A stretch of 28,137 nucleotides of DNA from a virus. Positions 914 to 27,708 of this stretch are shown piece after piece. Both the position numbers and the translations under genes were made by a program. The notes beneath the pieces were generated by a model. The model was given only the letters and a program-made list of their open reading frames with translations. It was not told the origin of the DNA and searched no databases. The first letter of the stretch is position 1, and the number at the start of each line of letters is the position of its first letter. The DNA is taken from positions 1-28,137 of IMG/VR virus record IMGVR_UViG_3300029787_000245, one strand, 5' to 3'.

Positions 914-1789
914 TTAAAACATAGTGAACACTGGTGGTTCTTCAATTTCTGAGAGAAGCTCTTCCTTGAGCTTATCCTTTTCGATCTCGCTTGCCTGTAA
1001 TAAGGCTGTTCCATTTAACACTGCTCCACCTCCAGGAGAAGGAAGCGTTCCATACTTGCCTCTGACCTCACCTAGGACTCCTTTAGCCACTGCGAGAGCG
1101 TAGCGTTGAATCCAATTTCTATAGTAAGGATGCATAGTATGTGTATCTAATCCTCGGAAAACCAACACCACAGGCTGTCCATCAATAACAGGCACAGGGT
1201 ATAGGTTTAATATGTTACCATTCACTAAGTCCCAACTGCCCTCTTGGCTTAGAATCTTTCTCATAGATTCTAGGTGTGTTTGCATCAAGTAGAAATCAGA
1301 CACACTAAAGTTGCTGAATAAGAAATTATCTTGGAAATATTTAATAAAGAAATCAAACTCCAAGGTTCCAGCCATGTTTTGAATACTTAACAGGCTCTTC
1401 TTGTAGGCACAGTAAGCTAAATTGTGTGCAATATGGAGTGGTAGTTCGTACTGATTAACCCCAGCAGAGGTCTCAAATACTGCCATTTGAGTACACCAGA
1501 AAGGTGCATGATAATCCAAGTTAGTGATGGCTTCATCAATAACCGTCTTCATTTGGAAGTCCGTGAGTTCTACTCTCACCACAGGATGTCCCAAACGAGC
1601 AAGAACAAAGTCTCTAATTGTTACTTCAAAGTCTGTAAGCTCTACTGGATCTCCAAAAGTGCCTTTGTTCAGCTTAGAGGAATCAATAGCTGTAGCAAAG
1701 ATATCAGTATCTCCTAGGTTTCTACCTCCGTAGTTACCAAAGGTGTCCCCATATCCTACAAGCTTTGGATCAATTTTTGTTGCTACCAT
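914..1789 (-). CDS. 13: Neck protein gp13-like (head completion)
   Basis: This 291-aa protein matches the T4 gp13 neck family in pattern. An N-terminal segment at residues 54-93 (TIRDFVLARLGHPVVRVEL, then a helix ending LDYH) matches the family's short connector-like opening. The C-terminus has the expected order: YRNWIQRYALAVAKGVLGEV, a GKYGTLPSPGGG loop, then an acidic amphipathic helix with SEIEKDKLKEELL. T4 gp13 is 309 aa, so the size fits. In T4, gp13 and gp14 form the neck that seals the DNA-filled head and receives the tail. Here the gene follows the capsid gene rather than sitting beside gp14 and gp15. The ATG at 1789 lies inside the end of the upstream 70-aa gene (20-base overlap), with only a weak purine-rich site before it. 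The assignment is from remembered family pattern, not a search. Confidence 0.8.
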   Translation of the reverse strand: MVATKIDPKLVGYGDTFGNYGGRNLGDTDIFATAIDSSKLNKGTFGDPVELTDFEVTIRDFVLARLGHPVVRVELTDFQMKTVIDEAITNLDYHAPFWCTQMAVFETSAGVNQYELPLHIAHNLAYCAYKKSLLSIQNMAGTLEFDFFIKYFQDNFLFSNFSVSDFYLMQTHLESMRKILSQEGSWDLVNGNILNLYPVPVIDGQPVVLVFRGLDTHTMHPYYRNWIQRYALAVAKGVLGEVRGKYGTLPSPGGGAVLNGTALLQASEIEKDKLKEELLSEIEEPPVFTMF

Positions 1790-1982
1790 TTATATCGTCT
1801 TTCTTATTCTGATGTGAGGATTTTGCAGGTCTTCCTTTTTTCTTTGGTATATTTATAATTTCTAAGTGTCGAGAACTAACTAAGCTTCTTGACTCAAAAA
1901 GTTCTCCTGGTCTAATCTCAATAACTTCCCCATCAATGTGAAGAAGCATGTTCCATCTACATTTGCTTCTATATTTATACAT
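1770..1982 (-). CDS. Small basic protein with AT-hook-like motif, unknown function
   Basis: A 70-aa protein between gp23 and gp13. The ATG at 1982 (MYKYRSKCRWNML) has AGAGGA 3 bases upstream, which is close for a ribosome site. An internal ATG at 1949 (MLLHIDGEV) is an alternative, and the frame also opens further upstream to 2027 without support. Residues 12-41 look like a compact beta-rich domain (HIDGEVIEIRPGELFESR). The tail is basic and polar and contains PKKKGRPAKSS at 46-56, with the GRP core typical of AT-hooks. It lies downstream of the gp23 terminator and overlaps gp13 by 20 bases, so translation is probably coupled to gp13. I do not recognise a named family; its place suggests a capsid- or neck-associated protein (inference). 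Confidence 0.65.
   Translation of the reverse strand: MYKYRSKCRWNMLLHIDGEVIEIRPGELFESRSLVSSRHLEIINIPKKKGRPAKSSHQNKKDDINGSNKN
1850..1857 (-). promoter_or_regulatory. Candidate T4-type late promoter box for gp13
   Basis: The minus strand reads TATAAATA, an exact match to the T4 late promoter -10 box recognised by gp55. It lies about 60 bases upstream of the gp13 start, inside the 70-aa gene, and downstream of the gp23 terminator. In an AT-rich phage genome the octamer can occur by chance, so context is the main support. I saw only three exact minus-strand matches by eye (1850-1857, 1972-1979, 28101-28108). Confidence 0.35.
1972..1979 (-). promoter_or_regulatory. Candidate T4-type late promoter box after gp23 terminator
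   Basis: TATAAATA on the minus strand, about 30 bases past the gp23 terminator stem. It overlaps codons 2-4 (Tyr-Lys-Tyr) of the 70-aa gene if that gene starts at 1982. If this is a real promoter, transcription would begin downstream of that ATG and the 1949 start would be used from this transcript. It may equally be a by-product of the encoded YKY. Confidence 0.3.
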
Positions 1983-2009
1983 AATTCCTCTAGTGTATAT
2001 AGGAAAGAG

Positions 2010-2045
2010 AAGAGGGTCAGAGGACAAAATTCCTCTGACCCTCTT
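2010..2045 (-). terminator. Strong hairpin terminator after gp23
   Basis: A perfect 15-bp inverted repeat (arms 2010-2024 and 2031-2045, loop 2025-2030) begins 24 bases after the gp23 stop. The arm reads AAGAGGGTCAGAGGA. On the minus strand the stem is followed by pyrimidine-rich CTCTTTCC rather than a clean T-run, so it may work as an intrinsic terminator, an mRNA-stabilising 3' end, or both. T4 also has a terminator after gene 23. It is the strongest hairpin I see in the window. Confidence 0.7.
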
Positions 2046-2068
2046 GTTTATTTACTTGTTAGTCGTTA

Positions 2069-3760
2069 TCAGACACTTACGTCAGCACCATTCTTGAAGC
2101 TATTTCTAGCGAACGGGCTGAACAGGTAGTTTGAGGTCGGGCCAATAATACGGATGATTCTGTAGAATCTGTTGTAAGGCTCGATGTGGACCTTACCGTA
2201 CCTAGTAAGGATTCCTTTCCTTGGCTGGAAGGACTCGGGATCCGTAATGGTCGGCAACTGCTGGAGAGGAATATACGGAGCGTAAATCATACCAGCGTCC
2301 ATTGCGTTGGCTCCTTTGTAGCCCACAAGGATCTCATCCGTGGGGTACATCGGGTCAACATAGAGGTCGTAGCGACCCATAAACTTACCTTTGAACTCAA
2401 TTGAGTTACGACCGATATTAGTCGGACCATCAGCAGGTTGAACACCTCCTTCAAGCTTGGCAGCACTCTCAAGAAGAGAAGCAACAAGCGGTGAAGTAAG
2501 AAGCCAATTACCTGGACCACGCATCGTCGTGCGATAAATATCCTGCGAAGCAAGGTTAATGATCGCAAGAAGGTTAGCGTAGACTTCGCCAACGTGACGA
2601 GGATAAAGCTGAAGACTTGACTGGCTGAAGTCGATGACGAAAACATTTGAGTCGGCCTTGTGTGCGCCAAGCTGAGTTGTTCTCGGGCTCTCGTTACCAC
2701 CGTTGAAGTCGTAAGTGAACTGAGCAGGAACGAAGGTTACTTCGTCAGTAGCGTTAGTTGCACCACCGAGGCCAGGGAATGAAGTTCCACCACCAAGGGT
2801 AACGTAATCGTTATCCATAGTGTGGGTTCCAACACCACCGTGCTTCGAAGGCTCACCATTGTGCATACCGTAAGCAATCGTTCTCAGATCTTCAATGAGT
2901 TCACGGTCGATTTCAAGTTGAAGCTCCTTCGAAAGAAGGTCAGTAAGCTCCCGCTCAAGATCAAGGTTGTGATAAGCCTTAAGGTCTTGAGAAGCCTCAA
3001 GAGTCCAAAGGGCTCTCATCTTACGAGTGTTGGCAACAACTGCCTCTTGCTCGATGTGGAAGGTCATCTCAGGAATACCAGTTCCCGTCAGACGCTCACC
3101 AGCGGACATTGTGTAGCCCATAACCATGTCTGGGTTCGGCCAAGCAGCAATTCTACCGCCCATCGTACCAGAACCAGCACCAGCACCAACCACTTCAAGG
3201 CCAGAACCAGCGAGGACGTTAGAAACGTCGAAGCTATTAGCAGCGATGTCGCCGTCAAGACCAATGCCGCCGCCTTTACCAGCGTCAGTGAGGAACGTAC
3301 CACCAGCATTCGTGGCTGCCACGGCTACGCCAGGAGGGTTGTCTGCACTCAATGAACCGATAGCAGAAGCGGTCAGACCTCTGTAGGTCAGGTTGAACTT
3401 ACTGTAAACAGTTTGAATGTTTCCAGCACCGACTCCACCGTTCTTCGCACGGTCATTACCGAGATAGAAGACCTGTGAAACAGGACCCTGCATGGGCTGA
3501 ACACCAACAAGGCTGTTGGCTAAAAGTTTAGGGTATACCCTGCGAACGAGGGGGAAGGCGAACTTTTGGAAAGTACCAAGCTGACCAGTTGTGGTAGCAG
3601 CAGCGGTAATATCCTCAGTAAGTCTTTCCTCGACAATAGATTTTGCTTGGTTCTCAAGAAGTTGAGCAGTTACGCGACGAGTGTAATCACTGTCGATGCC
3701 CTCTAGGACGGGCTCCCACTTCTGGACAAGCGTGTCATCAGTTTGATGCATCATTTCCAT
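2069..3760 (-). CDS. 23: Major capsid protein gp23
   Basis: A 563-aa protein (T4 gp23 is 521) that forms the hexamers of the head shell. Family marks include FAFPLVRRVYPKLLANSLVG followed by VQPMQGPVSQVFYLG (residues 67-100), an acidic helical region EASQDLKAYHNLDLERELTD, and a C-terminal part with ARNSFKNGADVSV. The N-terminal part is the prohead-binding arm, removed by gp21 in T4. LTE at residues 47-49 fits the gp21 rule (L/I-x-E) and lies at an appropriate distance before the shell domain, so cleavage after E49 is predicted. A Gly/Ala-rich stretch near 150-205 may be an inserted surface loop. Synonymous sites are more GC-rich than in the tail genes, as expected for the most highly expressed gene. 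The gene is 15 bases after gp22 and is followed by a strong hairpin. Confidence 0.97.
   Translation of the reverse strand: MEMMHQTDDTLVQKWEPVLEGIDSDYTRRVTAQLLENQAKSIVEERLTEDITAAATTTGQLGTFQKFAFPLVRRVYPKLLANSLVGVQPMQGPVSQVFYLGNDRAKNGGVGAGNIQTVYSKFNLTYRGLTASAIGSLSADNPPGVAVAATNAGGTFLTDAGKGGGIGLDGDIAANSFDVSNVLAGSGLEVVGAGAGSGTMGGRIAAWPNPDMVMGYTMSAGERLTGTGIPEMTFHIEQEAVVANTRKMRALWTLEASQDLKAYHNLDLERELTDLLSKELQLEIDRELIEDLRTIAYGMHNGEPSKHGGVGTHTMDNDYVTLGGGTSFPGLGGATNATDEVTFVPAQFTYDFNGGNESPRTTQLGAHKADSNVFVIDFSQSSLQLYPRHVGEVYANLLAIINLASQDIYRTTMRGPGNWLLTSPLVASLLESAAKLEGGVQPADGPTNIGRNSIEFKGKFMGRYDLYVDPMYPTDEILVGYKGANAMDAGMIYAPYIPLQQLPTITDPESFQPRKGILTRYGKVHIEPYNRFYRIIRIIGPTSNYLFSPFARNSFKNGADVSV
3572..3601 (-). 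repeat. 30-base segment shared with the 174-aa core-region gene (copy in gp23)
   Basis: These 30 bases encode gp23 residues 54-63 (AATTTGQLGT). They match 25 of 30 positions in 6355-6384, which encodes AATTSGQIGT. In gp23 the segment begins five residues after the predicted maturation cleavage site. No other copy was noticed. Confidence 0.6.
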
Positions 3761-7282: not shown

Positions 7283-10200
7283 TTAGGTAGGGTTGATGGG
7301 TTGTCGAGGAGGTGCAGGTTCAAATGCTGCCCCAGCCACCTCGGTAGGCGGTTTAAGTGAAAATCCCGTGTCCATCATCTTCACAGGACTGAATGCATCA
7401 GCAGCTACTGCTGTAGCCTTTCTGCTTAAGAGTTGAGTTTTTCTAATTGACAACTGATTACTCGCATCCTTCACCGCAGGAAATACCTTAATTCCATTAA
7501 CCAATCCGTTCCTGACTAGCCCATCCAGTAGAGAAAAGTTCTCTAGACGGAGGTATTTATTAAATTGAATCATTCTCAAACGACTAATAACATCAAAATA
7601 CGTTAGCGTTTTTCCTAAACCATCTATATCAATGTTATAGTTATCATCAAGCTCTTCAATAATTTCTTTGACGAGCCTGATACCAGTCCTATGCCTCACA
7701 GGAGTAAACTCTTTAGCTGTCCCTAAGTTACCTCTAGAAGTAAACCCTGTCTTAAAGACAGACGCATCTGGGAAAATCTCTGTGATCCGTGCCTGTGTAT
7801 CTTCTACTCCAAAAACATTAGTATACTTGGGGTAAGCAAGAGTTTGTTGAGCAAACTTAGATTTAGAGAGAGGCTTTGTAAACTTTGGAATAATAGCAGG
7901 TCTAGTTTTTACCTGCCTAATAATCGAACCACCAGGCGTGTATCCTACAATTGAAGACTTCGCATTGAATATATTATAATCAGTCCTGTTTGTGGGAAAC
8001 AGGATAATATACCATGGAATTTGTCTTGTAAGAAGAGGTATTGTTTTATTAGTCTTTGGAGCATCAAAAAGAATATCCGTCTGTGAGAGTTCTAAAGCAG
8101 CGCCAGACTCCAAGTAATCAAATATTAAATCTTCATGATTCAAGATGTATGTTCTTGAATTTGCTTTGTATCGAATGTACTCGTTAACACTTGCAAGTCC
8201 CGCAACTGTGCTTGTCTCTACAAGATCATAATTTATTTTTGTATTTTTTAATAAATAGGATCCTGGAGAAAGTGTAGTATTCACAGTGCTCAGATTTGCA
8301 CTTAAGAAGTAGAAGTCTTGCCTTGGATCTGATAGTGAATAAGAGTACTCCACTGAATTGGTGTCCATTGCGCTTACGGTAAGAGTTCTACTTGGATCTC
8401 CTCCTAAAAGGTTTATGGCCTTTTGTTTTGTCTTATCAGGGACATGGAAAGCATGATCTATTTCAGACTCACAGAATAAGCGGATTGATTGATCTCCTTT
8501 TTTGATGTCTATAAAATCACCATCTCTAATAGGAACGGTTCTAGACCCCAGAGCAAACGTATTCGTATCTTGAATATAATACTTTTTAAGAACTCCTGCT
8601 TGATTTTTAATTTCAATATGCTTATCAATATCAGTAGAAAAAACTTTCCAATTCGATAAGATATTCTGCATTTTACTTTCAGTCTTTGCAGCGTCTAAAG
8701 ACATATAAGTGGACTCAATCAAGGCCAGCGCAGCAGTCTCGTTCACTACACGATTAGAACTTTTAACAATTTCTAAAGGATTTCGCTTTCTACTATTGTT
8801 AGCTAAGTCTTGGAGGGTTCTAATTTTAAGTTTGTTAATCGTTCCATCTAAAATTCTAGTGCCCACTATCTTGTAAATTTCTCTATCAGTTAGTGGTGTG
8901 CCATCAACATTCCTAATACTGCGGAAGAGATCCAAAACAGTGGGGCTGAGGCTTGCAATAACCGAACGAGCAGTAACCCCATTGGCTCTTCGACTATCCC
9001 AGTTTGCTGCTTGCTTATTATTTTTTAGAACATATAAAATATTCTCATCAATTTTCTCTCCAAAGATTTGATAGCCCGTGGTATTTGGAACCATTTCAAA
9101 ACTTAACGGGTTTGTCATGATTGCAATATCGTTGTCAACAAATCCCGTAGGTTTTTTCTTTAATACATCAGCAATAATAGATCCATCATTTAAATCAAGC
9201 TTTCGACTAGTTCTTGCTTTCTGAGTAATAGATTTTGATCTACCAGAGCGTTTTAGTAATGCTGTACCTGCTTTAATTACATTTTTAACAGTAGAGAAAA
9301 GCCCAGGAGGCTCTTGATTAGGAAGCGTTACACCTCCTACGGGATAAGCTGGGTCATTCCCCGCTGTGAAGCCCTCGTCACAAGGACACCATGCTGCACA
9401 GATTTCTGACTCACACTCCTCTAGAGAATTAAAGTTCCACTCCTCTATAGAACTTTCTCCTGCTACGCAATATGGTTGTACGCATGTTCCTACGAAGTGG
9501 TGGGGATCCGCACCAACAACTACAGTACCCCCTCCTGTTATTTCTCCTGGTTGCAAAATGCCGCCTCCTGTTCTGGGCTCTCTTATTGTGGGGTCACCAA
9601 CGTCTTCTTCGTCAGCGCAGATCCATCTCCTCCATAAGACAGTAACTGGGCCACAATTTTCATTACAGCCTCCGTTATTACCTTTGCAACCTGTATGATA
9701 ATCTGGATCAGTAGTGCCATCTTCAGTTATTTCTCTTTGTGGATTATCTTCTTGAGCTTGAACATAATCTTTATATTCATCGCTGTCATCTGTAACTGGT
9801 ATATTGGACGGAGCATTTCCCATAGGGGGTTGAGGGAAGCATTCTTGATTAAAAACTCTCCCTTCAATCTTCCAGCAACCATCATAAGTAGGACTCAGAG
9901 GCCCAAGTGTAGTTGTCACTCGGCACTCACAATTATAAGCTCCTCCCGTAGAGGGACCACCACCTCCTGGCGCTCCAGGTCCTGCGGGTCCAGGTGTTGA
10001 AGGACCTGCTGGGCCTCCTGGGCCTCCTCCATCACCGAGCCCCCAAGTTTCTCGCTTGACACCAACAATTACGCACTCGGGACACTCAGGTTCCTCACCT
10101 GGTTCTTCATCTCCTGGATGCACACCGCAGGTACAGCTTTCTTGGTTAATCTCACAATCCCCTCCCTGAATATCACCAAACCCTTCAGCGGTCATCTGAG

Positions 10201-10519
10201 ACACAACTTCAGAGGGTTCAATCTCATTCTCTGCCTGTGCGCCTCCACAATCTTGAACTAACGTAACAATTTTTGTTGTAATTCGTCCTCCTGCTAAAGG
10301 ACTGCCCCACTCAACAACCGAAAGCTCTTCTTCCTTTTCTTTCACATAGCAATCACACGCTGGGGGTGGAGTACCAATATCATCATCGTGTTCAGCTAGT
10401 CCATCATCGTAACTAGCGTCTACACCTCCAGTCTCCTCTTCCTCATCGTCATTTCCTGGACCAAATCCAGGGGCAAACGTGTTACAACCGAAGGTTACAT
10501 TGTTTTGAGATCTCACCAT
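7283..10519 (-). CDS. Large structural protein with Cys-rich, collagen-like N-terminal third
   Basis: A 1078-aa protein at the end of the tail block. Residues 1-50 are acidic. Residues 12-380 hold 23 Cys by my count in small clusters (CDC 55-57, CTC 129-131, CPEC 146-149, CEC 197-199, CNENC 285-289, CPC 378-380), while residues 381-1078 hold one. A Gly/Pro-rich collagen-like linker spans 161-193. A Lys/Arg-rich segment near 411-435 leads into a long mixed alpha/beta region without repeats (to about 990) and a Pro/Ala-rich end (EPAPPRQPINPT). I do not recognise a named family. Its place after fibre-like genes suggests a tail or baseplate-attached protein. The start overlaps the upstream stop as TAATG at 10519. 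Confidence 0.8.
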   Translation of the reverse strand: MVRSQNNVTFGCNTFAPGFGPGNDDEEEETGGVDASYDDGLAEHDDDIGTPPPACDCYVKEKEEELSVVEWGSPLAGGRITTKIVTLVQDCGGAQAENEIEPSEVVSQMTAEGFGDIQGGDCEINQESCTCGVHPGDEEPGEEPECPECVIVGVKRETWGLGDGGGPGGPAGPSTPGPAGPGAPGGGGPSTGGAYNCECRVTTTLGPLSPTYDGCWKIEGRVFNQECFPQPPMGNAPSNIPVTDDSDEYKDYVQAQEDNPQREITEDGTTDPDYHTGCKGNNGGCNENCGPVTVLWRRWICADEEDVGDPTIREPRTGGGILQPGEITGGGTVVVGADPHHFVGTCVQPYCVAGESSIEEWNFNSLEECESEICAAWCPCDEGFTAGNDPAYPVGGVTLPNQEPPGLFSTVKNVIKAGTALLKRSGRSKSITQKARTSRKLDLNDGSIIADVLKKKPTGFVDNDIAIMTNPLSFEMVPNTTGYQIFGEKIDENILYVLKNNKQAANWDSRRANGVTARSVIASLSPTVLDLFRSIRNVDGTPLTDREIYKIVGTRILDGTINKLKIRTLQDLANNSRKRNPLEIVKSSNRVVNETAALALIESTYMSLDAAKTESKMQNILSNWKVFSTDIDKHIEIKNQAGVLKKYYIQDTNTFALGSRTVPIRDGDFIDIKKGDQSIRLFCESEIDHAFHVPDKTKQKAINLLGGDPSRTLTVSAMDTNSVEYSYSLSDPRQDFYFLSANLSTVNTTLSPGSYLLKNTKINYDLVETSTVAGLASVNEYIRYKANSRTYILNHEDLIFDYLESGAALELSQTDILFDAPKTNKTIPLLTRQIPWYIILFPTNRTDYNIFNAKSSIVGYTPGGSIIRQVKTRPAIIPKFTKPLSKSKFAQQTLAYPKYTNVFGVEDTQARITEIFPDASVFKTGFTSRGNLGTAKEFTPVRHRTGIRLVKEIIEELDDNYNIDIDGLGKTLTYFDVISRLRMIQFNKYLRLENFSLLDGLVRNGLVNGIKVFPAVKDASNQLSIRKTQLLSRKATAVAADAFSPVKMMDTGFSLKPPTEVAGAAFEPAPPRQPINPT
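9380..10486 (-). other. Cys-rich region of the 1078-aa protein, with collagen-like linker
   Basis: Covers residues 12-380. Cys occur mostly as CxC or CxxC pairs separated by 10-50 residues, interspersed with Asp/Glu/Gly/Pro-rich spacers. The Gly-Pro-Ala stretch lies at 9941-10039. Paired Cys could bind metal or form disulfides once the particle is outside the cell; the sequence alone does not decide which. Confidence 0.7.
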
Positions 10520-13059
10520 TAGTTAGGCTTAAGTGCAATAGTCGGGTTAGTTCCATTAAGATTTCCATAGAGATATGGAATATCTGATTGGGGGACTCCC
10601 TGAAGACTCCACATGACCGTGGGGTATGTACACTTGCCTACTCTTGGATTTCCAACGTAGCCTAATCCTAAATCAGAGCTAACAGGATTGGTATTTGAGT
10701 AAAGTAAATCAGAAACAGGAACAACAAAGCCACTAAATCGCTCGCCTCCTCGCTCCGATACGTTTAACGTATTCGTTGTTTTCTTCTTTTTACCGCCACT
10801 TGTAAATGTGAGTGAGTGCGGAGCAGGGAAACGTGGGGACTCTGTGCCTGATCTAGAATTTAAATCATCAGCAATAAATGCAACATAAATTGTAAACTCG
10901 TCAAAGCCCTTCTCCACCCAATGACCGAAGTAACTACCACCCTGCGCCTGTGTCCCACCACCAGCCTGAAAGCCCTGGCTATTCTGAGGAAGACAGTTAA
11001 TTAGATCAATAGATACTTTATAGTCTGCCAACCAAGGTGTGGAAGACCTATTAAATTTAATTTTCTTAGCGATGTAATGGAATCCTACTCGGGACTGAGC
11101 CATGTCGCCAGTCTCCGCATTGCGGAAGTTTTGAAGTCTTGCGGGAGTACCCCCACCTTCTGTCGTTCCATCGTCGTTAACCAACTGACTGTAACTTCCA
11201 GCAACAATCGTCGGATCGTCGGAGCTATTAGTGCCAAAGAAAGTGTTGATATAATCATTAGGATAAGATCCTTTTGATGTAATGTCCTGTTCAGTACACC
11301 ATTGTGACAAGTCCCAATCAGGATAAGAAGGAATACTTATCTGCGCTGCATTACTTCCAAAGCCATACTTACCAATGATATATTGCTTGATAACTTGTAC
11401 GGAGTCGTTAGTATCATCGTCATCTTGTCCGAATACCGATTGATAGTAATCGAACAACGCTCCTTCAGGTCCAAAGTTCCAACCGCCAAAGACATATCCA
11501 GTCGCCAATACGTTCATGCTATCTTGTGGAGTTCCAGTATCGCCTCCTCCTTCGGTAACATAAGTATTGTTAGTAGTTGAACCTGCTCTTAGAAGCTCTT
11601 CATAGATTTTTTTAATCTCAAGATCTAACTGCGCTTTTCCAACAGCGGGATTAGCGAGGGAAAGCTGCGGGAATGCAGCAGAAATACCCGCTCGTTCATT
11701 GTAAGCTAATTCAGCAGTCCTAAACAAAGGTCTAATATCAATAACATCGCTGGACAGAACCACATTCGTGCTTTGCTGAACCCAAACATAGGCCACAGGC
11801 AGGATAGACTGACCAATTAATTCATAAGCCTCGCTCTCTAGTTTCTCAGAAATAAGAGGTGCTAAGTTTAAGATATCATCAGGAGCAGGGAAACTACCTC
11901 GAACATCAAAAGTGATATCATTACCAGACGCTGCCGTGAATCCCATATTTGTGTTACTCTGGTCTCCAGGAGAGGCAAGAATCTTGTGATCTTCTCCTGT
12001 GTTTTGCATGTAACTACGTTGAATATCAGCAGTAGGCTGAAAATTAGCTTTAATACCAGCACCACGGATGATGCCAAGTTGAGGTTTTGTAATAACCCTC
12101 TTTCCTGTGCTTTTTAAAATTGTTACTCCGCTTGCATCAACAGGCTTACTGTAAATAAACACTAGGTCAATACGGCTCTGTACTCCCTCGACTGGGGTAG
12201 CTTGGCCTTGTGCATTGATGTATTCAAAATCCGAAGGATCAAAAGCGGGAACTTCAATATTTAATTCATCATCTACATCGACAATAGCTAATCGAGAAAC
12301 GCCTCGCCACTTTTTGATAAAGTAACTTTCTGTTCGTGGGAATTTAGCAAAGCCACTATTGGGATTAGTTGTTTCGTAGGTAGGCAAGACGTATGCGTCT
12401 GAACCTGAATTAAGTGCCTTGGCCCACACTAGTGCCTGTGAAATAACAAAAGGAACATTATGCGCTCCTCCTCCTAAAGTGTTCAGACTCGGGCTTCCAT
12501 AGGACAGAGCGCCATCCGTAGAGTTTACAACCACTGCTCCATCCCCATCGACGGGTGTATCAATATTAACAACAGGCCAAGTGAATGCTCGCTCAACAAG
12601 ACCCGTCATACCTAGGGCATCTTGAGACAAGGTGCTTTTAAATTGTTCTAAAGCAGCAGAGAGAAGTGCATTAGCTCCCCCTGGGAAATTACCAGCATTA
12701 GGTGTAGCAGTCTGCCATGCATCTACATCACCTAGAGTGTCTCCCATGACCTTCAATAAATAAGCTAAGGGAGCTTTTGAGGTTGCATCATTGATTCTCG
12801 CAGTATACCGTCCAGGCTTGACGCGAACTACCCTATCTGCTCCGTTGGCGTAAGGTCTTAACTCATCAAGATCTCCGCGTTTTACATTACGAATCTTGTC
12901 AGCGTCTCTTCTGAGTTGGTCCTTTAGCCATAAGCAATTCTGTTGTAACTGCTTTAGTGGAATATTATCCACTTCAAAGTAGTAAGGATCATTTGCTTTA
13001 AAGAATCGAATAGGGTCAATAAAGCGGTAAGTGCTATCGAAATGTATATTTTCACTCAT
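10519..13059 (-). CDS. Baseplate- or fibre-associated structural protein
   Basis: An 846-aa protein. The N-terminus is YRFIDPIRFFKANDPYYFEV followed by DNIPLKQLQQNCLWLKDQL (to residue 49), a segment I recall from structural proteins of marine T4-like phages. A related DN-L/I-PL motif occurs at the start of the upstream beta-helix protein, so it may be a shared attachment element. Residues about 270-480 are beta-rich with a segment typical of virion proteins (VEGVQSRIDLVFIYSKP). Residues 480-500 form a helix, followed by Gly/Thr-rich loops and a C-terminal beta domain (residues about 660-846). No catalytic motif is visible. The TAATG overlap at 13059 couples it to the upstream gene, and another at 10519 couples it to the downstream gene. 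Confidence 0.75.
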   Translation of the reverse strand: MSENIHFDSTYRFIDPIRFFKANDPYYFEVDNIPLKQLQQNCLWLKDQLRRDADKIRNVKRGDLDELRPYANGADRVVRVKPGRYTARINDATSKAPLAYLLKVMGDTLGDVDAWQTATPNAGNFPGGANALLSAALEQFKSTLSQDALGMTGLVERAFTWPVVNIDTPVDGDGAVVVNSTDGALSYGSPSLNTLGGGAHNVPFVISQALVWAKALNSGSDAYVLPTYETTNPNSGFAKFPRTESYFIKKWRGVSRLAIVDVDDELNIEVPAFDPSDFEYINAQGQATPVEGVQSRIDLVFIYSKPVDASGVTILKSTGKRVITKPQLGIIRGAGIKANFQPTADIQRSYMQNTGEDHKILASPGDQSNTNMGFTAASGNDITFDVRGSFPAPDDILNLAPLISEKLESEAYELIGQSILPVAYVWVQQSTNVVLSSDVIDIRPLFRTAELAYNERAGISAAFPQLSLANPAVGKAQLDLEIKKIYEELLRAGSTTNNTYVTEGGGDTGTPQDSMNVLATGYVFGGWNFGPEGALFDYYQSVFGQDDDDTNDSVQVIKQYIIGKYGFGSNAAQISIPSYPDWDLSQWCTEQDITSKGSYPNDYINTFFGTNSSDDPTIVAGSYSQLVNDDGTTEGGGTPARLQNFRNAETGDMAQSRVGFHYIAKKIKFNRSSTPWLADYKVSIDLINCLPQNSQGFQAGGGTQAQGGSYFGHWVEKGFDEFTIYVAFIADDLNSRSGTESPRFPAPHSLTFTSGGKKKKTTNTLNVSERGGERFSGFVVPVSDLLYSNTNPVSSDLGLGYVGNPRVGKCTYPTVMWSLQGVPQSDIPYLYGNLNGTNPTIALKPN

Positions 13060-16000
13060 TAGTTTTCTCTCTTAAGATCAAAGATATTAGCTGATTCGAA
13101 GCCTATTGTACCAGACAAATGCCCAATATACGACTCGGACCCTGGTGTATTGTTACTTCGTGACCTATACAGTGTAACCTTCTTGGGTCTTCCTGACGAT
13201 CCCAGACTTGCATTCTGAGCATTAGCAAACGTAAACCCTGCGGATTCATCAAACATACATTGGGTTGGGTTCTCGTCAACCATCTCCTTACAATAATAGA
13301 AGCCTGAAGTCTCCATTCGTGTAGGAATTCTTAATGTGCCAAAGCCGAGAGGGGCGTGGCTTAGTTTTAGCAGGTCAGGGTACGCACCACTTACGCTGTC
13401 CCCAGCAACACCAGGCCCTTCGGTTATTGCAGATAAAGCAGCAGAGCAGTTATATCCCTGAGCAAAAGTCTGATACGCGGGTCCCACTGCTCCTGGGAAG
13501 TTTCCATTAAAGAAGTTGTCATCCTCAGGGTTGTAATGTGGGAATGCCCCTTTATACCATCCACTTAGATCATTTTGCAAAAATTTTGCGTCAGACTTAG
13601 GCGACCAATAAATTCTAAAACATCCTGTGTTATTATAAACATGTTCAGTTGCACCATAACGGAATACATCCTGACCACTTACGTTTATACCAGCTTGGGC
13701 TAATAAAGATGCCTCAACTGCTGTCATCTCTTCAGTGTCTAGGGGGAACATACGGCTATCGTATGGATTATTAAACGAGCCTCCTGATGGAATCATCCAC
13801 ACACTACTTCCCGCTCCGAAGGTATCATGAACACTCAATGCTCCCGTTTGAGGAGTAAAAGCAGGAGCGCCAGAAGCAATAGTTCCGTACCCAGCATTCT
13901 GCGGCTTGGTTAAATCACCTTCGATTGAAGCAGAGGCATACAGCGCACTAGGTCCGTGCCAATCAACTTCAAAAGGCCACTGACCCTTCACGGAAAGATA
14001 GGAGGCATTAAAGCGAGAAGTATCGGCTATGTTCCAAATTCCAAAGCGTTCACACGGGGTTGCGCTGGTGCTGTAGTAATGTCCGTCTAATGGAGAATTA
14101 TTTGTTCCGATGGGGAAGTGGACATTGACTGCGTTAACTACGCTATCCTCAGTGGCTCGAACACACACGCCACCCTGCGTAATAAATTGCCTTCCGTTTG
14201 CGGCTGTATAGTTGGGACCTGAGCCAAACGGGTCATCGTTAATTAAACAAGTATTAACGATTGTTGTGTTTGTGAAGACAGGAAAATCAGCAATTGTGAA
14301 ATCTAAACCACCAGCATTTTCCAAGTCAGCCAAGAAGAAGTCTCCAATCGCACTGGTATCTTGCGGATTGGGGAAAAATTGCATAGATCCAGACATGGTA
14401 AGCCCACTCGTAGCTGTTGCCCCTGTGTGGTAATCTGTCCCTGCATCAAGCATTGCTCTACCCTTCGCAGAGCGGCCCCAGTTGATTGAGTAATCACCAA
14501 GGTCTTGCATGTTAATTGTAGAGTTTTTATTTGCGACCAAGCAAGCTCGCGTAGCATGTAATTCAACAGAAGTGTGATTTGCTTGTTGATTTAAATTAAA
14601 CGCTGAAGCTTCCAAGCCCCAAGAGTCTCGGATGCGTGGAGGTTGAATGTTAATAGTAGAATTGTTTTCCGCTAAAACATCTACACCGAATTGAGCAACT
14701 GCTGTAGGCCCATGAAGATTAATCTCTGAGGAGTTTTCAGCACAGAGTCCAGCAGTATAGTGCTGATAGGTGTACCCTTTCGGTCCCCAGATAAAGTTGC
14801 AACCGCTGCCTGTCCCGAATAGGCTGGCAACAGAATTATTACTTGCCTTGACTGCAAGTCCATAGCCTGGGACATTTGCGATTGAGTCTGCTTGTGCTCT
14901 GGTGTGGATAAAGGGGTGAACTAAGTTTAAGACTGAGTTGTTATTTACAGACAGGGCGGGAAGCATAGCTCTATTTCCCTCATACCATTTAATAACACCA
15001 TGACATGCACTAAACGACATGTTTCCATAGGTGGTTGGAATAGAATTTTTTCTGGCAAAGACAAAGGCACTCTCATCTTGTAAGTCTAAGTGCTGCCCGT
15101 TAGCAACAAAATCAACCTGATACCTAGCTTCTTGCCCCACATTTATGGGGTTTGTTACTGAGTCGAACAGGAAGGTAGAGTTTTTAGATCTAATTGCTTG
15201 TTGTTCCTGCCTGTCAAGACACAAGTTTTCATAGGTTACTTCTGATGTGTCGGCTTGAATCCCTTTATCATTTCCATAAATATCAAGAAGCCCCTTAACA
15301 TCCACTTGTGAATTATTAAGGATCATTCCATATCCAGTATTTTGTTCCGAGAACGTAATGCCTCCTGTGTTTTCGCTGTTGCTAAACAGTCGAGAGAAAC
15401 CACCATGAAGTTTTGAGTTGTCTAGCTGCCATCCTGTGTAATTTCGGGAGGCTCCCATGATAACGTCCATACCTGATGCTTGGAAGTCTCCTGCCATCGG
15501 GTCTGCGGTGCGGTAATTCTCTTGAGCAGTCGTTCCTGAAACCAACGCACTCATGGACACATCACTGTTAATTGCATGGAATCCAATCCCTGTTTGAGCT
15601 TTTCGAAGTTCGTTTGTTGTGAGCGAGTAGTTTCTATAAGAGAAAGCAGACCTAGAAAGAGTTACTTTTGAATTATTAAATTTAAATCCTGCTTCTCTAC
15701 ACCTAGCGGCAGAGCAGTTTTCTAGCACAACTTCAGAATTTAGAACATCAAAACCGAAATCTTCCCCTCCGTCAGGCACAGACTTTCCATTCACACAAAA
15801 GTTTCTAATGTAGATAGGACCATCACAGTTTTTAACGCTGGCCTTTGTCAGGTAGTTTAAGTAAATGTTTCCACCCGCACTAACGCCTGTTCCTGTTCCA
15901 ATCGCTGCTCGTTTTAGCGCGGCTCCTGTGGCTTGATTTAAAGAAGATGCATCAGTTGTCCCCAACGTGCTATCCTCTGCTAGATCTGCAACATTTTCAT

Positions 16001-16751
16001 AAGGATCGAGTCTAAATTTACTTACTCCATGAGTAACATTACTTTCTCTTAAGAAAGTAGATTGATCTAAAGCAACACTTAATGGTGCTTGTCTCAGCGT
16101 AAGCTTAGGATACAAGAAAGAGTTTACGGAACTAAGTTTGATATCTCCTGCGCTACTTAGTACAGTAGATGATACGTTAACTCCTGAAGTTACAACATTA
16201 AAGTTAATACTAGAGAACAATGTAGCACTCACATCTGGAGAAAAGATGTCTTTAATTAGGGGTGCATACCCATTCCTAATTGTATTTGGTGTAACCACTG
16301 CATCTACATTAGAAGAACAAGTATAAACTTTAGTAAATGCTCTATTAATAATCTCAATTGAGCCACCTTCCTCAATTCGGAAATTATGTAGCTCCAAGTC
16401 TCCCATATCTCCATTGTTACACACTTCAACTAGCACAGGGAACCTAACAACTTTAGGAATTGCGGCTATGGCTGCGCTAAGAGAGGTAAAGATGGTGGTG
16501 TTTGCTGCTAAGTAATCAGCACCAGCGTGAGCAGACACCGTTAAAGAAAGCCCTGGAACACCTGCTGAAGTAGTAAATCCTTGCTGCTCCCATAGCTCGT
16601 AAGTCCTTTCCTCTAGGTCATATAAGGGAAGGTTATCTTGCTCCCAGTTGTAGAAAGAACTTGTGTCGTACTTGGAGACATAAGGAGTCCATGCGTTGTG
16701 AAGCATGACGCTTCCGCTACTTGTATAAATATCTGCTCTTGAAAATACCAT
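13059..16751 (-). CDS. Right-handed beta-helix tail fibre or baseplate adhesin
   Basis: A 1230-aa protein. Residues 33-57 carry the attachment-like motif FYNWEQDNLPLYDLEERTYE. Residues 85-110 (TTIFTSLSAAIAAIPK then VRFPVLVEV) are a typical opening of a pectate-lyase-like parallel beta-helix. From about 336 to 917 there are at least 13 short N-S ladder units such as NNSKVTLS, INSDVSMS, LNNSQVDVK, KNSTFLFD, NNSVLNL, NNSTINI and KNSTINM. These mark successive coils, with Asn/Ser at the turn and alternating hydrophobic residues in the strand. The region after 930 is non-repetitive and probably forms a trimerisation or receptor-facing domain. No lyase or hydrolase active site is evident. It is probably a trimeric adhesin mounted on the baseplate (inference). 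TAATG overlaps flank it on both sides. Confidence 0.8.
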   Translation of the reverse strand: MVFSRADIYTSSGSVMLHNAWTPYVSKYDTSSFYNWEQDNLPLYDLEERTYELWEQQGFTTSAGVPGLSLTVSAHAGADYLAANTTIFTSLSAAIAAIPKVVRFPVLVEVCNNGDMGDLELHNFRIEEGGSIEIINRAFTKVYTCSSNVDAVVTPNTIRNGYAPLIKDIFSPDVSATLFSSINFNVVTSGVNVSSTVLSSAGDIKLSSVNSFLYPKLTLRQAPLSVALDQSTFLRESNVTHGVSKFRLDPYENVADLAEDSTLGTTDASSLNQATGAALKRAAIGTGTGVSAGGNIYLNYLTKASVKNCDGPIYIRNFCVNGKSVPDGGEDFGFDVLNSEVVLENCSAARCREAGFKFNNSKVTLSRSAFSYRNYSLTTNELRKAQTGIGFHAINSDVSMSALVSGTTAQENYRTADPMAGDFQASGMDVIMGASRNYTGWQLDNSKLHGGFSRLFSNSENTGGITFSEQNTGYGMILNNSQVDVKGLLDIYGNDKGIQADTSEVTYENLCLDRQEQQAIRSKNSTFLFDSVTNPINVGQEARYQVDFVANGQHLDLQDESAFVFARKNSIPTTYGNMSFSACHGVIKWYEGNRAMLPALSVNNNSVLNLVHPFIHTRAQADSIANVPGYGLAVKASNNSVASLFGTGSGCNFIWGPKGYTYQHYTAGLCAENSSEINLHGPTAVAQFGVDVLAENNSTINIQPPRIRDSWGLEASAFNLNQQANHTSVELHATRACLVANKNSTINMQDLGDYSINWGRSAKGRAMLDAGTDYHTGATATSGLTMSGSMQFFPNPQDTSAIGDFFLADLENAGGLDFTIADFPVFTNTTIVNTCLINDDPFGSGPNYTAANGRQFITQGGVCVRATEDSVVNAVNVHFPIGTNNSPLDGHYYSTSATPCERFGIWNIADTSRFNASYLSVKGQWPFEVDWHGPSALYASASIEGDLTKPQNAGYGTIASGAPAFTPQTGALSVHDTFGAGSSVWMIPSGGSFNNPYDSRMFPLDTEEMTAVEASLLAQAGINVSGQDVFRYGATEHVYNNTGCFRIYWSPKSDAKFLQNDLSGWYKGAFPHYNPEDDNFFNGNFPGAVGPAYQTFAQGYNCSAALSAITEGPGVAGDSVSGAYPDLLKLSHAPLGFGTLRIPTRMETSGFYYCKEMVDENPTQCMFDESAGFTFANAQNASLGSSGRPKKVTLYRSRSNNTPGSESYIGHLSGTIGFESANIFDLKREN
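14001..15746 (-). repeat. Beta-helix NS-ladder repeat region
   Basis: Encodes residues 336-917 of the beta-helix protein. Units of irregular length (about 20-80 residues apart) each carry an N/D/T-S-x-hydrophobic-x-hydrophobic core; visible Ser positions include 339, 361, 396, 446, 481, 503, 525, 606, 640, 674, 698, 744 and 870. Confidence 0.7.
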
Positions 16752-24524: not shown

Positions 24525-24988
24525 GATAATGTTACCTCTACTTCAAAAACTTGTAGGTCATCGCTGTTCAATTCTAAATCTAAAGCAACCTTCAGGCTGT
24601 TTCCTCCTGAAGGACCTATCTCACCTAGAGGGATAACTTTTATCTTCACAATCCTAGCTCCAACAATGAAGCGGTCAAAGGATGTTTGTATCTCTCTTTT
24701 TATGTTTTCAAATGTGATCTCGTCTAAGGGCTGAAAAAGATATTTCCTAAGGTTGCATCCGTAGCTGGGAATCATCACCCTCTCCCCTCGCTCAATCCTA
24801 AGCAACTGGGAAACGGACTGTTTGATCATTGTAACCCCTGTGTTCTTAGCAAAAAATCCTCCTAAGGTTTTTTTAGACCCTAGTGGAAATTGCAGACCTT
24901 GTACAAGTCTGCGCTTGCTGGTTGGGTTCTCCTGCATATAGCGAGGCACAACTTGACCATATACGTTTACTGTTTGATTTGCAGCCAT
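24521..24988 (-). CDS. 25: Baseplate wedge protein gp25
   Basis: A 155-aa protein of the gp25 family, the small wedge subunit that helps nucleate sheath assembly and is conserved across contractile systems. The diagnostic part is GVTMIKQSVSQLLRIERGER then VMIPSYGCNLRKYLFQPLDE (51-90), followed by an amphipathic helix and a C-terminal beta region (ARIVKIKVIPLG to VFEVEVTLS). T4 gp25 is 132 aa; here the extra length is an N-terminal arm (residues 1-40). Start and upstream stop share TAATG at 24988. Confidence 0.93.
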   Translation of the reverse strand: MAANQTVNVYGQVVPRYMQENPTSKRRLVQGLQFPLGSKKTLGGFFAKNTGVTMIKQSVSQLLRIERGERVMIPSYGCNLRKYLFQPLDEITFENIKREIQTSFDRFIVGARIVKIKVIPLGEIGPSGGNSLKVALDLELNSDDLQVFEVEVTLS

Positions 24989-27708
24989 TATATCCTAATA
25001 TTTTTGAAAAAGCCTTGTTGAGCTTTATAATTTTGAAGAACTTCTAGGTTATTTAGTGGCCTAGAGTAAAACTTTAAGCTTCCTACATGTCCACGCAAGC
25101 CACTAACAAGCCCACCACGGAATCCACCTCCTAAGAAGTTACCATGCTCATACATTCCATCCGTGTAACCACCTCCCACAATCCATGGAGTGTAGAAAGG
25201 ATTTAACAGGGGGCCTGTTTTCAAGGACTGCGGACCATCAACAGTCGTAGAGGAATACTCAAAGCTATTTTCTTTCCTAAATGAAGGTAGTTGAGGTGCA
25301 TCTTTTTTATCTACTCCAAATACGCTGGTGACAGCGGAAGTGGCGACCAAGTTTCCATCCGCATAGAATTTAACTTCATCTTTGCCAGGATCAACCGTAA
25401 CGTCAACAAGAACAAACTGAGAAGACACATTTCCAAAGTCGGTTGCTGATAGGTCCACCTTCATGTTGTAGTATGTGGGGTAATCAGCGCAGTCATCATC
25501 GTTAATAAAGGATGCAGAGGAGGAATCACGCGACTGAGTTGGAGCAATAAAGAAGCTTAACGAGGACGCTGGGTCATTGTCAGAGTTTTCATTACTAAAT
25601 CCTGATAGTCCCAGAGGCGTTCCCGCTTCGGTGATTCGCCTATCTCTAGTGAACCCGCAAAGCATCCCTCGAACAAACTGCTCGCCTCGATCATTATATA
25701 AGTAATCTAAATCTGTCTCGCCTTCACCTGGAGATCTTCTACATCCTGATGCATGACCAACATTTTCGCTTCCTAAAAGAACTTTGGTTAACGAGGAGGT
25801 TGTGGCACTCATCCATCCCACTGCTGCGTCCATAATATTGGGAACATGGACCCAGCATTCCATACTAAATCCACTTGGGGAATAAGTTAGATCTCTGAAC
25901 TCTGGCGTATCGGGTAGTTTAAAGTAGGACCCTAAAGCTGAGGCTGTTGTAGGTGATGAGCTTTTGTTTTTTACAATCCCCTCTAGATAAGGAATAGCTA
26001 ACCCTGAGGCAAAAACTGTTCGCTTAGATGGGCCTACTAACTGACCATTGTTATACATGTTAGTGGTAGCACAGTTTGTTGTTTTAAAATCCATTGACGA
26101 GGGCAGAACCAACTTCGTTTCTAAAAAGTTGTAAATAGCAAAAAGACCGTCCGATTCAATTTGGTCTGTTAAAGAAAGAACGGTCCCTGCATTAGTGCTT
26201 GAAGGAGAATATAGGATACTTCCTTTTCCAATAGTGGGCACGTTTAGGTGATCAATTTTCATTGAGTCAGGCGTTGGTCTAGACACTGCAAATCGAGGCT
26301 CTAACGGAAGTACTACCCCAGCAACCTCTGCTTGTTCGAAGATAAGCTCTCGTTGTTTTTCTACATCTATTGATAAATTATACTCTTCTAAGTATGCAAA
26401 ATCATTAACTGGGGTTTCTCCTGGAGGGAATTGCGGCTCATCACTATCGGAGTATATTTGAGGAATTTTAACTGAGATTTCAATCTGTTTCTTACGTCTA
26501 TTGATTTTACTGTTATGATTTGCAATATCTGTAATAATTAGCTGGCGTTGGTTTTTTACGATTGAAGAATCTTCACCATACTCTTGAATATATCGAGTAA
26601 GATCTCCCGATAAATCATAAACATTCTTGTCTCGTTGCTGCATTACAACTGACAGGAAATGATCCTCATCATAGAAGTACTTCATTCCCAGGCTGTCATC
26701 AATCCTACTAGGGTCAAAGACATTATCAGTATACGCTTTTAGAGATGCGATAGAAATAGCATCTCCTTTTCCTCCTAAGTTAGGATCATAATCGTACTTC
26801 CACTTTTCCCCTACTGGGACAACACCAGAGATAGCGAGATATACAGGGTCTAAACCACCTGATCTTGAATCGTAATACAGGCCATCGTTTGTTAAGACAT
26901 ACTGCCCTAACTCGCTGATCGGAGGTCCGTAGCTCAATCGGAAGATGTCTTCTTCGTCTGCTCCTTCTTCAGGATCAAGCAAGGGGACACGCTCAAAGTT
27001 TGTCTGGTCTAGGAAGGGGTCAAGCTCAGAACTATCTAAAAGGAGAGGCTCTAGCGAGGGGTCTGCTTCTCTTGACTGTAAAATGCTATTAATAGCTTGT
27101 ATTTGATCATCGCATTTTTTCATGTAGTCCATAGTGCTTTTTAACTTAGCCTTCTGTCCTGCATATTCTTGTTCAAAAAGGAGTTCTGCTTCTTCAGGTG
27201 GCAGTGTACCTTTTTGGTTTGCAGAATTTCCTGATTGATATTTTTGAAGCTCATTAAACTTATCTAAGCACTCTGTTATTTCTTCTACTTGATCTATGAT
27301 CCCTTGAACATTTTGATAAATCTGAGCGCCGTAAGATGCGGCAAACTGAAAGGCTCCCAATAGTCCTCCGAGATTGGACTGCTCTTGGTTGTTATCGTTG
27401 TCCTGCCCATCCCAGCCTGTACGAGATTTAAATTTAATCATACCCTCTTCGGTATCCCATTCAATGATTCCAGTGTCCAATGATAGTTTTTGGAAAACCT
27501 GTTTCATGTGGTTATTTGCTTTAGACTTTCCTGCTTCGATCTGGCTGCTAATGTTACTGAGAATACTACTAGGCAGTAAAGCCATGGCTCCTTGAGCTAA
27601 ATTAAGCATACAGCTAGGAAGGCCGAATGACATACCTAGAGCTTGGAACGCTCCTGTTCCTCCTTGCCCCTGTACTTTTAAAAATGTTTCTAAATCAAAT
27701 GATGCCAT
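24988..27708 (-). CDS. Large baseplate-region protein with LamG-like C-terminal domain
   Basis: A 906-aa protein inserted between the gp5-like spike gene and gp25. Residues 1-120 are Gly/Ala-rich with short hydrophobic stretches; 130-215 are helical and probably coiled coil; 355-415 form another charged helix (NSKINRRKKQIEISVKIPQI). From about 500 the pattern is that of a concanavalin A/LamG-type sandwich: GLFAIYNFLE (521-530), FSMECWVHVPN (614-624), VTVDPGKDEVKFYADGNLVA (770-789), and a closing GLRGHVGSLKFYSRPLNN then EVLQNYKAQQGF (870-900). Such domains bind sugars or proteins, so an adhesin or structural bracket at the hub is likely (inference). AGAGG lies shortly before the ATG, and the upstream stop is 9 bases away. 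Confidence 0.78.
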   Translation of the reverse strand: MASFDLETFLKVQGQGGTGAFQALGMSFGLPSCMLNLAQGAMALLPSSILSNISSQIEAGKSKANNHMKQVFQKLSLDTGIIEWDTEEGMIKFKSRTGWDGQDNDNNQEQSNLGGLLGAFQFAASYGAQIYQNVQGIIDQVEEITECLDKFNELQKYQSGNSANQKGTLPPEEAELLFEQEYAGQKAKLKSTMDYMKKCDDQIQAINSILQSREADPSLEPLLLDSSELDPFLDQTNFERVPLLDPEEGADEEDIFRLSYGPPISELGQYVLTNDGLYYDSRSGGLDPVYLAISGVVPVGEKWKYDYDPNLGGKGDAISIASLKAYTDNVFDPSRIDDSLGMKYFYDEDHFLSVVMQQRDKNVYDLSGDLTRYIQEYGEDSSIVKNQRQLIITDIANHNSKINRRKKQIEISVKIPQIYSDSDEPQFPPGETPVNDFAYLEEYNLSIDVEKQRELIFEQAEVAGVVLPLEPRFAVSRPTPDSMKIDHLNVPTIGKGSILYSPSSTNAGTVLSLTDQIESDGLFAIYNFLETKLVLPSSMDFKTTNCATTNMYNNGQLVGPSKRTVFASGLAIPYLEGIVKNKSSSPTTASALGSYFKLPDTPEFRDLTYSPSGFSMECWVHVPNIMDAAVGWMSATTSSLTKVLLGSENVGHASGCRRSPGEGETDLDYLYNDRGEQFVRGMLCGFTRDRRITEAGTPLGLSGFSNENSDNDPASSLSFFIAPTQSRDSSSASFINDDDCADYPTYYNMKVDLSATDFGNVSSQFVLVDVTVDPGKDEVKFYADGNLVATSAVTSVFGVDKKDAPQLPSFRKENSFEYSSTTVDGPQSLKTGPLLNPFYTPWIVGGGYTDGMYEHGNFLGGGFRGGLVSGLRGHVGSLKFYSRPLNNLEVLQNYKAQQGFFKNIRI

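Follow-up and report, generated by a model that had tools for sequence, protein, structure and literature searches.

A candidate modular virion protein with predicted disulfide-stapled domains in an uncultivated T4-superfamily myovirus

In Hoc, the outer capsid fiber of T4-like phages, a conserved C-terminal part serves as the anchor, while the displayed domains vary (PMC10385173). Virions of the Agrobacterium phage Milano contain many structural disulfides, which stabilize the particle and some of which must be reduced before the tail can contract (PMC10811340, PMC10491603). Hoc is the closest analogy in layout, and phage Milano the closest chemical precedent, for a 1078-residue protein encoded on the minus strand at positions 7283-10519 (read from 10519 to 7283) of the window, which is a complete virus record of 28,137 bases. 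The gene is an open reading frame with homologs at the same syntenic position on about 35 nonredundant IMG/VR contigs. The preferred reading, held at a probability of roughly 60%, is that it encodes a virion protein whose conserved anchor displays rapidly diversifying, disulfide-stapled binding modules in a Hoc-like layout.

The likeness to Hoc is one of layout only and consists of a conserved C-terminal part, a variable string of domains, an acidic character and membership in the same virus superfamily. The domains of Hoc are Ig-like and its C-domain is small and binds the capsid, whereas the window family has cysteine-rich modules and a C-terminal part of about 640 residues. The AlphaFold2 (AF2) model of the module has a helix between its strands. 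Alignment of the C-terminal part (alignment A3) with T4 Hoc by hhalign gave a probability of 0.2% against this single-sequence target. The likeness to phage Milano lies in cysteine abundance in myovirus virion proteins, which in Milano form disulfides; the virion location of the window protein is suggested by its gene context. The bonds in Milano are largely interchain (sheath, baseplate, collar and capsid) and its proteins contain about 2% cysteine, whereas the window protein has 6% cysteine in one region, seemingly paired within small modules.

Genomic context of the family

PHROG matches on the window include a gp23-type capsid protein (E 9e-84), a gp21-type protease (E 1.4e-52), the gp6 and gp25 wedge genes (E 2.7e-37 and 2.6e-14) and a head-tail adaptor; therefore, the contig is assigned to a T4-superfamily myovirus. 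The 1078-residue protein and its 846- and 1230-residue neighbors matched nothing in Pfam or PHROGs. The 1078-residue protein had zero matches among 50,697 phage records, tblastn likewise matched the family to none of the phage records, and searches of INPHARED, Pfam and PHROGs gave no real match for the protein, its module or its C-terminal part. A single-sequence scan of IMG/VR with the whole protein also gave no match. Relatives were reached via the capsid gene, with 38 loci from an IMG/VR scan with the capsid protein and 35 from a scan with the aligned family, and about 35 nonredundant homologs are present in IMG/VR. The protein family is real and previously undescribed, and it adds a sequence-isolated, apparently structural family to those of uncultivated phages. 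A scan of bacterial and archaeal genomes matched neither the C-terminal part nor the capsid protein and therefore gives no clue to the host.

The gene order in all homologs is 1230-type, 846-type, 1078-residue-type, 149-, 220- and 148-type genes, gp21, gp22 and gp23, and the family locus is constant between tail-type genes and gp21/22/23. The 846-residue protein (10519-13059, minus strand) is the upstream neighbor wherever contigs extend that far, and its stop codon overlaps the ATG of the 1078-residue gene (TAATG). Since the family gene directly precedes the gp67/68-like and gp21 genes, its product might be internal or transient, either associated with the head or a substrate of the gp21-like protease, with an N-terminal region that is never displayed. 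This is improbable, since the gene is translationally coupled to the 846-residue tail-type gene and fast-changing modules of a disulfide type make little sense within a capsid. The protein is also not the portal; PF07230 lies at other places in five relatives, and hhalign to gp20 gave 0.3%. The gp20 portal gene occupies the same gene position in T4. Comparison with T4 structural proteins by hhalign gave at most 1.1%. Display outside the virion is plausible from the gene context and the modular variability.

Several other genes showed features of their own. The 1230-residue neighbor (13059-16751, minus strand) has 18 cysteines, with 4-15 in its complete homologs at other loci, and resembles a beta-helix tailspike by eye. 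A 906-residue protein encoded beside gp25 (24988-27708, minus strand) has no PHROG match, and its C-terminal third resembles a LamG/concanavalin-type domain by eye. In one relative (L073:2-13742) many genes, including the family homolog, are split into short open reading frames, a pattern suggestive of sequencing errors or decay.

N-terminal tag, linkers and cysteine content

The family plan consists of an N-terminal tag, Gly/Pro/acidic linkers with interchangeable cysteine-rich modules, and the conserved C-terminal part. The tag spans residues 8-23 (VTFGCNTFAPGFGPGN; 10451-10498, minus strand) and has 10 invariant columns in alignment A4. Its family consensus is TFGCGxFLPGxGPxN, in which the invariant cysteine is Cys12 of the window protein, and a scan with the tag found matches solely at the start of proteins of this family. 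A lipoprotein was rejected because direct inspection of the sequence found no hydrophobic segment ahead of this cysteine. The tag is followed by an acidic linker at residues 24-54 (10358-10450, minus strand), identified by composition.

The cysteines of the window protein are at residues 12, 55, 57, 91, 122, 129, 131, 146, 149, 197, 199, 215, 227, 278, 285, 289, 301, 346, 351, 369, 374, 378 and 380, and then only at 683. Residues 1-380 thus hold 23 cysteines (6.1%) against one in the other 698 residues, a skew that the earlier note had pointed out correctly; in 20,000 shuffles of the whole protein the maximum was 18. The CxC/CxxC pairs named there were also found, at residues 55, 129, 146, 197 and 378. 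The same 380 residues are composed of 15.5% Gly, 11.3% Glu, 9.2% Pro and 7.1% Asp. The next-highest cysteine density among the open reading frames of the window is 8 per 380 residues, in the 1230-residue neighbor, and none comes close to the 1078-residue protein. All 23 N-terminal cysteines can be assigned, with one in the tag and 8, 8 and 6 in three successive stretches.

A Gly-Pro-Ala linker had likewise been proposed, and it is present at about residues 158-196 (9932-10048, minus strand). The description of the region as collagen-like did not hold, since Gly-X-Y runs in the window protein do not exceed three triplets. Linkers rich in Gly, Pro and Ala could in principle belong to a true collagen-like, triple-helical fiber with cysteine knots, but with runs of three triplets in the window and three to seven in six relatives such a fiber is scarcely credible.

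Among the homologs, the N-terminal region is between 218 and 1484 residues long, compared with 610-659 residues for the C-terminal part. It contains 1-83 cysteines in complete copies, and 89 in L034, whose start is missing. Between L036 and L071, identity is 82% in the C-terminal part and 35% in the N-terminal region, where an 8-cysteine module stands in place of a 6-cysteine one. L002 and L047 are 69% and 44% identical in the same two regions, with 7 cysteines and 1, and the only cysteine of L047 is that of the tag. These sequence comparisons show modules that diversify and vary in number far faster than the C-terminal part. Two other homologs (L069 and L104) keep the tag and the C-terminal part, but their N-terminal domain is of a wholly different kind; it contains 14 and 12 cysteines, respectively, and neither of the two modules (A and B) described below. 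The near-identical homologs L032 and L066 (3300035698_000064 and 3300007074_000110) differ by one copy of a Gly/Pro linker repeat of about 23 residues (NPGGNQGGIGGGLVPDPPPGGGG), which suggests that linker length varies by repeat slippage.

Cysteine pairing in the main module

The main module, module A, has about 90-110 residues with the pattern CxC ... C ... C ... CxxxC and is present in 0-3 copies per protein. Copy 2 of the window protein (residues 197-301, 8 cysteines; 9617-9931, minus strand) was identified by HMM, pairing analysis and AF2. It scored 19.4 bits (E 8e-8) with an HMM that excluded the window copies, compared with at most 8.9 bits in 1000 shuffles with fixed cysteines, and it is the sole statistically secure module in this protein. 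A module-A-like copy 1 at residues 55-149 (10073-10357, minus strand; cysteines 55, 57, 91, 122, 129, 131, 146 and 149) is based on its cysteine pattern only. It has the same order, CxC...C...C...CxxC, and its HMM score of 1.2 bits is not significant against controls of up to 2.5.

The pairing of the cysteines in this phage family can be read from evolution alone. Across 43 module A copies, C1 and C5 are both present in 34 and both absent in 9, and C2 and C6 are both present in 39 and both absent in 4. The optional cysteines Ca and Cb occur together in 6 copies (absent in 37), and Ce and Cf in 3 (absent in 40); no discordant copy was seen for any of the four pairs. The cysteine columns of this tally were assigned by hand, and a count on alignment A2 served as an automated check. 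In 37 of the 39 copies there, the number of cysteines before the invariant pair equals the number after it, which none of 100,000 permutations reached. The rule also holds for 20 of 22 copies made up of non-defining copies and the later-found L093 and L099 (0 of 200,000 permutations). The module copies are related, so both permutation counts overstate independence. The states seen before and after the invariant pair are 0-0, 1-1, 2-2 and 3-3; five copies retain only C2/C6 beside C3/C4, and four retain C3/C4 alone. Copy 1 of the window violates this rule with 2 before and 4 after, though its number is even. The cysteine total is odd in 31 of 34 tagged N-terminal regions, or in 22 of 25 distinct spacing patterns, as expected from one tag cysteine plus pairs. 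The exceptions include L069 and L104, which have even totals. These sequence patterns fit three or four disulfides per main module and support such bonds well; in the mature protein the bonds would probably be present. The predicted bonds in copy 2 are 197-285 (C1-C5), 199-289 (C2-C6), 227-278 (C3-C4) and 215-301 (Ca-Cb).

Zinc or iron-sulfur sites would be another use for cysteines in a CxC...CxxxC arrangement, whose spacing is like that of metal ligands. Metal-bound knobs could fold in the reducing cytoplasm, and a phage oxidase was not found in 16 partial records. However, all ligands of a four-ligand site should be retained or lost together, yet C1/C5 and C2/C6 disappear independently of each other, copies with two and with four cysteines exist, and additional pairs occur at other positions on the strands. 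The independent loss of pairs, including the copies with only C2/C6, argues against a four-ligand metal site and is what independent disulfides predict. Metal sites are thus unlikely. The earlier note had left the choice between a metal-bound and a disulfide-locked region; the first option is disfavored, and the second agrees with the paired gain and loss of cysteines, their parity and the strand register described below.

The disulfides might also be interchain bonds, that of the tag cysteine included, which lock the particle until they are reduced at the host, in the manner of phage Milano, where sheath contraction requires DTT plus guanidine (PMC10811340). The tag cysteine, which never varies and has no partner within the chain, would suit such a latch. 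On the other hand, most cysteines belong to variable modules that contain them in even numbers, which agrees with intradomain bonds; L047 carries the tag cysteine alone; and the capsid protein has no cysteine in the window and very few among homologs. A latch of this kind is therefore doubtful.

Predicted structures, proposed role and the minor module

The AF2 model of module A copy 2, built from a 39-row alignment, is of middling confidence (pLDDT 76, pTM 0.65). It predicts strands at 4-21 and 24-38, a helix at 53-65 and a strand at 97-107, which is a beta-hairpin/helix/strand arrangement. The proposed cysteine pairs are 5-93, 7-97, 23-109 and 35-86 in model numbering, and in the model 5-93, 7-97 and 23-109 would share one parallel register between the first and last strands. 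The conserved C-terminal part (residues 431-1078; 7283-9229, minus strand), the proposed anchor, aligns end to end with 31 relatives at 30-50% identity (A3), and its AF2 model is a confident one, with a pLDDT of 87.5 and a pTM of 0.86.

Sequence searches of the PDB with alignments A1, A2 and A3 gave unconvincing best E values of 0.28, 0.78 and 0.021. For the module A model, the best Foldseek match in the PDB had an E of 0.17, and the best VIA-align match was to a designed protein (Z 6.3). A weak match to PKD, which is Ig-like, was seen in only 2 of 39 module A copies (E 0.004). The C-terminal model had best Foldseek matches of E 0.027 in the PDB and 0.049 in BFVD, read as chance at a query-normalized TM below 0.1, and no VIA-align match with Z of 2 or more; it was searched as a single 648-residue piece, and a weak match of this kind does not prove a new fold. 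Thus neither the main module nor the C-terminal part matched, in Pfam, PHROGs or, convincingly, the PDB, a well-described domain of known fold, which the earlier note had named as the finding that would count against it; the minor module alone showed a faint Kunitz resemblance.

Under the preferred reading of a displayed virion protein, the gene would encode a late protein associated with the virion of a T4-superfamily myovirus. The constant C-terminal part would probably anchor it to the particle. The flexible Gly/Pro/acidic N-terminal chain would present small domains, each held by one to four intradomain disulfides, which in the main module would be C1-C5, C2-C6, C3-C4 and optionally Ca-Cb or Ce-Cf. 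Because relatives exchange the domains and vary their number, the protein would probably serve as a tunable device for binding surfaces, and fast domain turnover would be expected of binding modules that face changing targets such as the host envelope, an extracellular polymer or particles. The conserved tag cysteine could link chains to one another. Disulfide formation would follow lysis, or take place wherever the particle encounters oxidizing water. No genes for thioredoxin, DsbA or Erv1 were found in 16 partial records of relatives, the Erv1 search being one without a positive control. Since thioredoxin and DsbA were not found there, the simplest guess is that oxidation follows release. 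The site and means of oxidation of a phage protein made in the cytoplasm also become a testable question. The family suggests that disulfide-stabilized virion parts are used by phages beyond the Agrobacterium group, and it may be a source of small, naturally diversified disulfide scaffolds.

The minor module, module B, has four invariant cysteines and ends in CxxxC. Many copies are present in L034 and L038, and one each in L098 and L099. Residues 346-380 of the window protein (cysteines 346, 351, 369, 374, 378 and 380; 9380-9484, minus strand) resemble the module B of these four homologs by eye and in alignment A5, although the stretch alone is not significant. The top PDB matches of the module B profile (E 0.003-0.08) are all Kunitz domains, and the best E with Pfam Kunitz was 0.056, in 1 of 20 copies. 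The profile aligns with the second half of Kunitz/BPTI (C30 ... C51xxxC55), but module B has four cysteines instead of six and does not have the half with the inhibitory loop. By definition it is not a Kunitz domain, which has a six-cysteine framework; the faint resemblance to half of one is a lead only. A broader and more tentative reading, somewhat short of an even chance, concerns a widespread, unnamed family of T4-superfamily phages. These would carry a cassette-like display protein that acts as a fast-evolving adhesin oxidized only outside the cell. Its variable part would string together novel disulfide-stapled mini-domains in different combinations, one kind with a fold not yet recognized in the PDB and the other Kunitz-like, on an anchor of novel fold.

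Two open reading frames of 225 and 189 residues (L113:907-1584 and 1581-2150, minus strand) from the same genome as L034 also encode several module B copies, with Pro-rich linkers between them. Both lie outside the structural operon; therefore, the 4-cysteine module also serves other proteins of the same virus.
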